Below are positions 58,056 to 61,377 of a stretch of 64,000 bases of DNA, piece by piece (positions within the stretch are counted from its first letter, which is position 1; every line of letters starts with the position of its first letter). The stretch comes from Campylobacterales bacterium. Lineage in GTDB: Bacteria > Campylobacterota > Campylobacteria > Campylobacterales > Sulfurospirillaceae. The position numbers and the translations under genes were made by a program. Location: positions 1-64,000 of the forward strand of contig JAJRPV010000024.1 in assembly GCA_024280575.1 (NCBI GenBank), given 5' to 3'. The notes beneath the pieces are model-generated. The model worked only from the letters and a program-made list of their open reading frames with translations. It was not told where the DNA came from and made no database searches.

Positions 58056-58520
58056 TTACTTTGTAAATTTTGAAAATGCTTTTACTAATTCTTTTGCAGA
58101 TTGTCCCATAACTTTTTCTACATTTCCACCAAACATCTTACTCATAATTCCCATCTGCGCACCTGTGATAAAAACTTTTCCATTTTTGTCTTCATAAACT
58201 CCTAAGCGGTATGGCATAAATCCCAATATATTTTTATCTTTATCATTTTTGACGATAGAGTAAGCATGTTTTGCATTTCCCAAAGATACGACCATCATCT
58301 TTTGAACATTTTTATTTCCTGCTTTCTCAAAAGATTGCTTCATATTGTAAACATGTGGCACATTCCAACCTAAGGCTTTTGCCTCATCTTGAGCTTTTTG
58401 TACAGTATCTTCAAAATTAAGAGTACTCTCTTTTGTGATGCACATCAATTTTGGCATCATCTTCCAGATAACCAAGCCTAAAACAATCGCTCCCAAAACA
58501 AAACCTAACAAAAACTGCAT
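58056..58520 (-). CDS. DUF302 domain protein with N-terminal TM
   Basis: CITKESTLNFEDTVQKAQDEAKALGWNVPHVYNMKQSFEKAG; FMPYRLGVYEDKNGKVFI. Confidence 0.8.
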   Translation of the reverse strand: MQFLLGFVLGAIVLGLVIWKMMPKLMCITKESTLNFEDTVQKAQDEAKALGWNVPHVYNMKQSFEKAGNKNVQKMMVVSLGNAKHAYSIVKNDKDKNILGFMPYRLGVYEDKNGKVFITGAQMGIMSKMFGGNVEKVMGQSAKELVKAFSKFTK

Positions 58521-58591: not shown

Positions 58592-59236
58592 TTAAATTAT
58601 TATTTTAAGCAACTTATCAATTTTAATATTTTTTTCGCGGGGATTTATCCTTTTTGAAAACTTGAGCCATCTAATAATAGGTTTTTTATACCCATAAAGA
58701 GATAGTTTATTAATCAAAAATTCTACATCTTTTGAGTTTAAATGCTCTTTTATCAGCGATGCAGCCACAAGCATAGAGGATATATTTTTTATTTTTTTCA
58801 TCTGTTTTTTTGCAGATTTATAGTCTTTTGCTTTCATCTGTTTTACAAAACTTTTATACTGTTCAGGCAAATCATCAAGACTTACTTTGTCAAATCTGTT
58901 TTCTATCATATAATAATAACTTTTACTCGGATCATTTTTATCCAAAACATCCAAAAGAGATGTATATTCTTCACATTTGTCATTTATCAAAACCGCTACA
59001 TGTAGAGCACAAACTCCTAGATATACTTTAGCCAAAGGCTTCAAATCAGCGCTGCTTTTTGCACTCTTTAGTGCTCTTTTTAGTGACACGGAAGCGAGCC
59101 TGGTTTTGCCCTCTAAATAATATTGCTTATAACTGTCAAATGAATTTGAAGTATCTTTTTTCCAGATACCCGGTGTTTCATTTTTCAGTGAACAGCCTAC
59201 TAAAAAAATAGCTATCAACAAAATGATTTTTTTCAT
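58592..59236 (-). CDS. Putative lipoprotein of unknown function downstream of the Mla-like genes
   Basis: LLIAIFLVGCSLKN lipobox. Confidence 0.6.
   Translation of the reverse strand: MKKIILLIAIFLVGCSLKNETPGIWKKDTSNSFDSYKQYYLEGKTRLASVSLKRALKSAKSSADLKPLAKVYLGVCALHVAVLINDKCEEYTSLLDVLDKNDPSKSYYYMIENRFDKVSLDDLPEQYKSFVKQMKAKDYKSAKKQMKKIKNISSMLVAASLIKEHLNSKDVEFLINKLSLYGYKKPIIRWLKFSKRINPREKNIKIDKLLKIII
58996..59005. repeat. Iterated palindrome CTACATGTAG
   Basis: CGCTACATGTAGAGCA context inside the lipoprotein gene. Confidence 0.9.
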
Positions 59237-60165
59237 GGCAAATCAACCTTTTTCTTGTCACTTTGTATCAAAGAGTTTACGCTGTCAATCAAACCATTTG
59301 CCTTGTCAACTGCCAACAAAATCTGCTCTTTCAGTAAAACTATATCTTTGTCTGATTTTCCAACAGCATTTACCAAACCATTCAAAGCTTTTAGTTTTTG
59401 CTTAACATCTTCTAAAATATCGTTTATATTATTTGGTATTTTTTGTGTAGGTCTTATAATTCCTTTATCGACTTCATACAAGATAGTATTGATTTTAACC
59501 GTACTTTTTTGAACTTCATTCATAATTTCTTTTAGAGATTCTATGCTTTGAGTGATATTTTTTGTACTCTTTTTCTCTCCTGTTACTGCATCCAACATTG
59601 ATTTATTGTTTGCAAATTTTGCTGTAACTTTTTCTATATTTACCAAAGTTTTCATGAGGGATCCGTCTTTGCTAGATAGTTCATTTGTGAGTTTATCTAT
59701 ATTGGCAATCACATTTTTTACATTTTGCAAAACAGGTTTTAATTCGAGTATCAGGGAATTAATATCATCTTGAACTTCATAACTCAAAATTGCGTTTGGA
59801 GAGATTACGGGATAATTCGCATTTGCTACCAATGAAATAGTTGATCCTCCAATTAGTGGTTTTCTAAGCAATAAGTATGCTTTTCTATTGATCCATTTTA
59901 TATTTTTTTCTTTTACTAAAAAATGCACAAATACTTTTCCGTCATATGTAAAATCAATCTTATTTATATAACCTATTTGAAATCCAGAATACTTTATAGG
60001 CGTTCCTATATCAAAATTTTCTGCACTATTTGCATAAAACGCATAAGTATAACTTTTTTCAAAAACTCCCTTGTATTTTAAAATAAAAAAAACAGCAGCA
60101 ATTAAAAAAATCGAAGTAAAAAAAGTAAAAACTCCAACTGCTATCTTCATTTTATTATATGACAT
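59233..60165 (-). CDS. MlaD family (MCE domain) protein
   Basis: FYANSAENFDIGTPIKYSGFQIGYINKIDF; IGGSTISLV. Confidence 0.9.
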   Translation of the reverse strand: MSYNKMKIAVGVFTFFTSIFLIAAVFFILKYKGVFEKSYTYAFYANSAENFDIGTPIKYSGFQIGYINKIDFTYDGKVFVHFLVKEKNIKWINRKAYLLLRKPLIGGSTISLVANANYPVISPNAILSYEVQDDINSLILELKPVLQNVKNVIANIDKLTNELSSKDGSLMKTLVNIEKVTAKFANNKSMLDAVTGEKKSTKNITQSIESLKEIMNEVQKSTVKINTILYEVDKGIIRPTQKIPNNINDILEDVKQKLKALNGLVNAVGKSDKDIVLLKEQILLAVDKANGLIDSVNSLIQSDKKKVDLP

Positions 60166-60613
60166 TTTTATCCCTATAGTATTTATTTGATTTTAAATCT
60201 ACTATTTTAGTTATTTTATCATTAAATATGTTAAACAATTTAAAAAGCACTTCCATATCTTTCGTGTGATCCAACATACTAAATGGTTTTATAATTAAAA
60301 TCGTATCGAAACTACTAACATAAGCTCTTAAGTATTTAACAATTAAAATATCTTTTTTATCTAATTCATAGACTCTTTTATCTTTAATGCCGTTAATTTG
60401 ACATTTTTCCATAAGTTTAAAAACAGTTTGTTCAGCTTTATTTATTGAGTAATTTTCATGATATTCTAGTATAAGTGCAATATTTTCAATTATGCTTAAA
60501 TCCCTTAAGAGAGGCGTTTCTACGCTTATTAAAGCAATATTTCTATCTTGCATTGTATATTCTTCAAGGCTTTTTGAGTCGTCAAATAACTCTATAAGAA
60601 TTGTATCACTAAT
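60155..60613 (-). CDS. Degenerate MlaF-like ABC ATPase (no Walker A, altered signature and Walker B); putative ATT start
   Basis: Located between MlaE-like and MlaD-like genes. LSIIENIALILEYHENYS matches the post-Q-loop region; ELDKK at the LSGGQ position; ILIIKPFSMLD at the Walker B/D-loop position. GGAGG lies 7 nt upstream of ATT at 60613; first ATG is at 60553. Confidence 0.55.
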   Translation of the reverse strand: MSDTILIELFDDSKSLEEYTMQDRNIALISVETPLLRDLSIIENIALILEYHENYSINKAEQTVFKLMEKCQINGIKDKRVYELDKKDILIVKYLRAYVSSFDTILIIKPFSMLDHTKDMEVLFKLFNIFNDKITKIVDLKSNKYYRDKNVI

Positions 60614-61377
60614 GATAAAGCCTCCAATACAAAAATAGATATAAAAAGTACAACCATAGACTTTGAAACTCTAAGTGGAATTTCAGTATATCTTTTTTCT
60701 ACGGTTTCTCCAAAATAACTAGGTATTGCAATTATCAAAAATCCATAAATTACACTTTTAAAGATAAAAATACATATGTACTTTACTGTAACTGCATTTG
60801 TCAATGATGATATAAATCTTGCAAAATCCATATTAATTGAAAAAAACATAAACAAATATCCGCTCAAAATCATTATGACCGAAAACAATACTGCTAAAGA
60901 TAAAAAACTTAATATTCCTGCCACAGCTCTTGGTGCAAACTGGTACTTCATGATATCAATTTCATAAGTTTCCAGTGTACTTAATTCATGGTTTACTTTC
61001 ATGATTGCTGTTTTAATTCCTACTCGCAGACCAGTTCTCAAAGATATCAAAAGAGCCATAAAAAAGGGTATAAATTCAACTATTACAAATTGGACTATTA
61101 TATTACTTAGCTGATTTTGGAGTGAATATTCAATAGAAAGATTTACAATAAAACCCATAAAAAGTGCACCGAATATTATAGCAAAAAGCAAGAAAACAGG
61201 TAAAATCTCTATGGCTGTAAAAAATATTTGCTCAACTAATATTTTTCTGCTAGCAGGGTTATAGCTTTTAGGATGAAATATATTTAAAAAACAAACAACG
61301 GAGAATTTGTAAAAAATGATAAAATCATTCAATAAACCCAAAACAAAATCACCAATATTTTCAAAAAACTTTAGCAA
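60592..61377 (-). CDS. MlaE family ABC permease
   Basis: FEXX-type permease: RKILVEQIFFTAIEILPVFLLFAIIFGALF; LISLRTGLRVGIKTAIMKVNHELSTLETYEID. Confidence 0.88.
   Translation of the reverse strand: MLKFFENIGDFVLGLLNDFIIFYKFSVVCFLNIFHPKSYNPASRKILVEQIFFTAIEILPVFLLFAIIFGALFMGFIVNLSIEYSLQNQLSNIIVQFVIVEFIPFFMALLISLRTGLRVGIKTAIMKVNHELSTLETYEIDIMKYQFAPRAVAGILSFLSLAVLFSVIMILSGYLFMFFSINMDFARFISSLTNAVTVKYICIFIFKSVIYGFLIIAIPSYFGETVEKRYTEIPLRVSKSMVVLFISIFVLEALSLVIQFL

Follow-up and report, generated by a model that had tools for sequence, protein, structure and literature searches.

Can an ABC-type lipid permease work beside an ATPase subunit that has only half of the ABC fold and none of its catalytic motifs? 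This question is raised by one operon of a Campylobacterales bacterium (assembly GCA_024280575.1, contig JAJRPV010000024.1), located in the 64,000-nucleotide stretch analysed here (positions 1 to 64,000, hereafter the window). On the minus strand, the gene of the half-length ATPase is flanked by mlaE and mlaD, and a lipoprotein gene follows mlaD. The features of the locus are listed below.

60592..61377, minus strand: mlaE, MlaE-type permease of 261 aa with no STAS domain (PF02405, E 3.5e-36)
60952..61014, minus strand: coupling helix within mlaE, predicted ATPase docking site; KTAIMKVNHELSTLETYEIDI, aligned with canonical EIGTMKITEEIDAMRSMGFEP
60621..60625, minus strand: Shine-Dalgarno-like GGAGG within the mlaE 3' end, 7 nt ahead of ATT
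60611..60613, minus strand: putative start codon of the half-ATPase, ATT (AUU), invariant in 23/23 homologues
60155..60613, minus strand: half ABC ATPase (pseudo-MlaF), helical subdomain and C-terminal RecA half only, with 0 catalytic motifs
59233..60165, minus strand: MlaD of 310 aa, MCE domain and long helical region (PF02470, E 6.3e-8)
58592..59236, minus strand: lipoprotein of 214 aa with lipobox LVGC; sequence MKKIILLIAIFLVGCS

The start of mlaD overlaps the stop of the half-ATPase gene by 11 nt. At family level the two flanking proteins look normal, as the earlier note had stated: MlaE matches the PF02405 profile and has a coupling helix that is recognisable though diverged, and the MCE domain of MlaD scores 33.2 bits against a cut-off of 25.1. 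The lipoprotein is weakly similar to BamD/TPR proteins (NCBIfam BamD model, 1.4e-4) and is likely the outer-membrane partner of the system. Between the lipoprotein gene and purL, 58056-58520 (minus strand) encodes a DUF302 protein whose N-terminus carries a membrane segment.

The homology of the middle protein (~152 aa) is confined to the C-terminal half of ABC ATPases. NCBIfam ABC-ATPase models align colinearly with it, from about position 65 to about position 195 of 240 (LptB model, E 1.8e-7), and a profile built from the 23 half-ATPase homologues matches solved ABC ATPases (MacB, 6.4e-8; LptB, 2.7e-7), always in their C-terminal half. By hhalign, the half family aligns with the profile of live MlaF (E 5e-8, probability 95) and with a family of full-length dead ATPases described below (residues 75-192, E 7e-11, probability 97), which itself aligns with live MlaF at E 2e-21; the PDB matches of both the half and the full-length dead profiles are ABC ATPases. 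These profile comparisons rule out a chance ABC resemblance. With Pfam, PF00005 did not rise above its cut-off on the half-ATPase, the top match being a spurious GSHPx (0.022). AlphaFold with two-row alignments (the window sequence and that of L041, a full-length relative) gave pLDDT values of 44 and 44, too low to carry weight here; Foldseek of the L041 model returned ABC ATPases throughout the matches listed, but at a TM of ~0.35.

The whole N-terminal half, Walker A (GxxGxGK[ST]) included, is absent from the three homologues of the window genus and from 20 others. In the window protein, LISVE occupies the Q-loop position, ELDKK replaces the LSGG signature, ILIIKP stands at Walker B and IVDLKSN at the switch His; the Q-loop Gln, the signature, the Walker B Asp-Glu and the switch His are all missing. 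The protein is predicted to be catalytically inactive, as certainly as a sequence can indicate it. Accurate in these respects, the earlier note had described a ~150-aa protein without the N-terminal Walker A region, with ELDKK for LSGGQ and ILIIKPFSMLD in the Walker B stretch, and the ABC homology that it assumed is genuine. The stop-to-stop frame extends from 60155 to 60670, with its earliest ATG at 60553. Because mlaE (ending at 60592) overlaps the start of the half-ATPase gene, there is no space upstream for a Walker A half, which rules out that the missing N-terminal half is encoded there.

Window-type MlaE was found in 27 of 397 genomes of the phylum (E<=1e-20), and all 27 loci were inspected: 23 carry a half-ATPase, 3 have no ATPase gene and 1 is a fused operon. 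In G752, G713 and G725, MlaD comes directly after MlaE with no ATPase gene between them. Within the genus, MlaE and the half-ATPase are present in two of nine other members (G003 and G009), while the window's MlaE was not found in the remaining genus and family members. The operon has different neighbours in G009 (L034: cytochrome c peroxidase upstream, permease downstream) and has therefore moved within the genus. The truncated form is not restricted to close relatives: the 23 half-ATPases, from at least three families, share the same boundary, length, mlaE overlap and start signals, with the window trio among the most divergent members of the clade. A recent decay or an assembly error is ruled out by this identical boundary. 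A MlaD homologue lies downstream in 23/23 loci, and a strict lipobox was detected in 14 of the 19 loci with sufficient sequence. In G626 (L198, 1421-2185 in reverse-strand coordinates), mlaE and the end of the lipoprotein gene share one fused frame, owing to a large internal operon deletion or an assembly fault.

The window gene, which had been presented as a single oddity, is real but belongs to a large lineage that includes full-length dead ATPases and half-eroded intermediates. Entry to this wider family was gained through a bacterial genome scan with the window MlaE, which returned only L041, from a 'Deltaproteobacteria' MAG. Its operon encodes MlaE, a 250-aa ATPase, MlaD and a TPR lipoprotein, and the ATPase is full length yet dead (TDSPDDAHHLL at Walker A, LDPEE at the signature, LLVERP at Walker B). 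Among 390 genomes of L041's class, 109 carry a related MlaE (E<=1e-25), the weakest matches being canonical. The 87 full-length ATPases adjoining a lineage MlaE in that class all lack both the Walker A Lys and the SGG signature, and all share the Arg closing the signature helix and the Pro after Walker B; the 10 canonical ATPases in that comparison are all complete. As a control in the order of the window, a strict pattern recognised a complete ATPase at 20 of 27 canonical MlaE loci and gave no decision for the other 7. Across the lineage, the SGG signature is absent from all 126 full-length ATPases, and not one of the 149 ATPases or remnants encoded next to a lineage MlaE has the full catalytic set, versus 11 of 11 canonical ones.

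Intermediates were drawn from a sample of L041's phylum. Basal loci (L213-L217, L222-L224 and L226-L228) keep Walker A and the Q-loop, have LSLG, LSLE or ISTG at the signature and have lost the switch His; other relatives keep only the Walker A Lys, and others are fully dead. To judge from these motifs, the basal MlaFs likely bind ATP without hydrolysis, a candidate first step of the loss. A tree of 206 MlaE sequences splits canonical MlaE from the whole lineage (support 0.999) and recovers a crown whose ATPases are dead, halved or missing (0.958) and the half clade (1.0); the MlaEs with dead ATPases group in it as a single lineage. The deep order of the basal groups is poorly supported (0.27-0.59), so the order of motif loss is a reading of states and not a proven series. 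We consider the grounds evenly balanced for a broad history in which a single ancient ABC-type lipid permease lineage would have abandoned ATP. Its ATPase would have lost its signature and switch His before Walker B and Walker A, later its N-terminal half and finally the whole gene, with the permease and MCE bridge kept under selection; the transporter would now be an ATP-independent lipid conduit on which the dead motor serves as a docking lid.

The coupling helix of MlaE contacts MlaF in the solved MlaFEDB (PMC7790496), and the corresponding loop of YrbE proteins contains an EExDA motif (PMC9947336). The helix is located between TM2 and TM3, and we compared its identity with that of the rest of the protein, for each MlaE against its five nearest ATPase-bearing relatives. 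The helix/rest identity ratio is at least 0.88 in 149/149 ATPase-bearing MlaEs. In five loci where MlaD directly follows MlaE, the helix has decayed (L136, 0.40; L137, 0.28; L197, 0.22; L199, 0.26; L200, 0.21), and the orphan MlaEs with no adjoining ATPase or MlaD (L138-L140) have ratios of 0.73-0.79. Since L136 has 28 N near the mlaE end, this case rests mainly on L137. These ATPase-less cases represent two or three independent losses, and perhaps only two, because L197 groups with L199 and L200 in the MlaE tree (0.901). This co-loss supports docking of the half-ATPase on MlaE.

We therefore lean, with some reserve, towards the view that the locus encodes a Mla-type MCE lipid transport system in which the former ATPase has turned into a non-catalytic docking subunit. 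The earlier note's suggestion of a catalytically dead protein, possibly a scaffold, is supported by the 23 conserved halves, their low dN/dS and the decay of the coupling helix in loci without the stump. Conservation of the half-ATPase peaks at residues 31-50, just after the Q-loop position; in ABC transporters this part of the ATPase is turned towards the permease. Two half-ATPase copies would bind the coupling helices on the cytoplasmic side of the MlaE dimer, make contact through this conserved segment (TPLLxxLxxxENIALI) and hold MlaE fixed, probably permanently open. Lipid would move between the inner membrane and the MlaD hexamer, and from there reach the outer membrane via MlaD and the lipoprotein, flowing down its gradient without ATP hydrolysis, which is one option proposed for PqiABC. 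In this proposal the Walker A half would be expendable, its only tasks being to bind ATP and to close the dimer. Transport is probably ATP-independent, a view reached by exclusion and from the parallel with PqiABC and LetAB; ATP may still be bound by the basal members, which retain Walker A.

The locus resembles several known systems without coinciding with any of them. Like MlaFEDB/MlaEFD of E. coli and Veillonella, it combines MlaE, an MCE protein MlaD and an ABC-ATPase homologue in the order mlaE-mlaF-mlaD, and its MlaD is long, as in most diderms (PMC10665443). It differs from them by its half-length, motif-less ATPase, by the absence of MlaB/STAS and by a MlaE lineage placed apart from canonical MlaE in the tree (0.999); the competent, operon-encoded MlaF that defines an ATP-driven Mla system is missing from the window locus. 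PqiABC and LetAB also associate a membrane protein without ATPase domain with an MCE protein, and Pqi too has an outer-membrane lipoprotein (PMC12436622, PMC10897342), but the fold of PqiA and LetA differs, whereas the window permease is a true ABC-type MlaE (PF02405). The Mla-Pqi chimeric system of Brucella (Mpc) joins MlaE, a MlaD-like bridge and a lipoprotein (PMC12436622); however, its MpcF ATPase is described as well conserved, and its lipoprotein is PqiC-like and not TPR/BamD-like. Mycobacterial Mce systems associate MCE proteins with MlaE-like (YrbE) permeases having the EExDA loop, but several of these transporters share one live ATPase, MceG (PMC9947336). In open papers, our literature search found no description of a MlaF that is dead or halved; in a survey of 1083 genomes, MlaF was assigned by synteny and its annotation noted as uncertain (PMC10665443). 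In genome surveys, "MlaEFD present" need not mean an ATP-driven system. For PqiA, passive transport, an unknown ATPase and PMF have all been left as possible drives (PMC10897342). A lineage in which true MlaE permeases survive at each step of losing the motor is a natural experiment on how MCE systems are powered and on whether lipids can cross the envelope passively.

An ATPase acting in trans is the most serious alternative: MlaF of contig C4, or another ATPase, would power the transporter, and the half-ATPase would be a regulator or a placeholder. Indeed, the window genome encodes a live MlaF in a second, canonical operon on contig C4 (STAS-MlaE, MlaF, MlaD and lipoprotein), with complete motifs (GGSGSGKTT, LSGGM, LFLDEPTSGLD and THD), and one MceG serving several Mce permeases offers a precedent (PMC9947336). 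Loci L236, L247 and L248 retain the coupling helix with no ATPase in the flank and perhaps use an ATPase elsewhere, which makes supply in trans possible in basal members, and in L222 and L224 the ATPase gene lies apart from mlaE. Against this, the C4 protein is the only close MlaF of the window genome and belongs to its own complete operon; among the remaining ABC ATPases, identity to it reaches ~41% at most and is mostly 25-38%. An ABC dimer site needs the Walker A half, and a protein lacking that half cannot complete one. Moreover, four genomes without an adjoining ATPase gene and with a decayed MlaE coupling helix keep a MlaF relative elsewhere, in an open frame in G752, G725 and G100 and with an internal stop in G713; in G115, none was found at E<=1e-40. 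There, a live MlaF is probably not used by the MlaE of this lineage, or at least not via the helix. We regard an ATPase encoded elsewhere, as the earlier note had proposed, as disfavoured and unlikely. In G713 (L199, L253), an in-frame TAA interrupts both the window-type MlaE and the canonical MlaF, perhaps through sequencing errors or decay.

Returning to the docking subunit, the question of how it is produced arises from its start. The mlaE and half-ATPase frames overlap by ~19 nt, and no ATG, GTG or TTG start is conserved among the 23 half-ATPases. On these two grounds the protein might arise by frameshifting out of the mlaE frame, as an extension tethered to the permease, instead of from an AUU start, but we give this little credence. 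All 23 half-ATPase genes have GAGG placed at Shine-Dalgarno distance from an ATT codon, and this invariant arrangement forces rare synonymous codons in mlaE: at the overlap, the Ser codon is TCA in 23/23 genes (versus a 12% share of Ser codons across these mlaE genes) and the Leu codon TTA or TTG in 23/23 (versus 33% of Leu usage). The joint chance is 0.039 per gene, the true significance being below the product of such chances because the homologues are related. Furthermore, an in-frame TGA lies immediately 5' of the ATT in at least four homologues, and no slippery sequence was seen by eye. Among loci with no ATPase gene, L200 has TCT at the Ser codon and L197 retains TCA TTA, as expected if the loss is recent. 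These signals support, without proving, initiation at an invariant AUU. Conserved AUU-initiated genes form a very short list, of which infC and pcnB are members, and the half-ATPase, if confirmed, would be an addition to it.

Finally, that the ATPase is a functionless remnant in neutral decay, as its stepwise erosion and repeated complete loss might suggest, is very improbable given its invariant residues, the boundary and start signals common to 23 genomes and a coupling helix retained wherever the stump is retained. Outside the overlap, dN/dS is 0.08-0.22 in the closest half-ATPase pairs and 0.16-0.42 in close pairs of full-length dead ATPases, more distant pairs being left out as their dS is saturated; with 23 halves conserved in this way, the earlier statement that the gene is not simply decaying is upheld.
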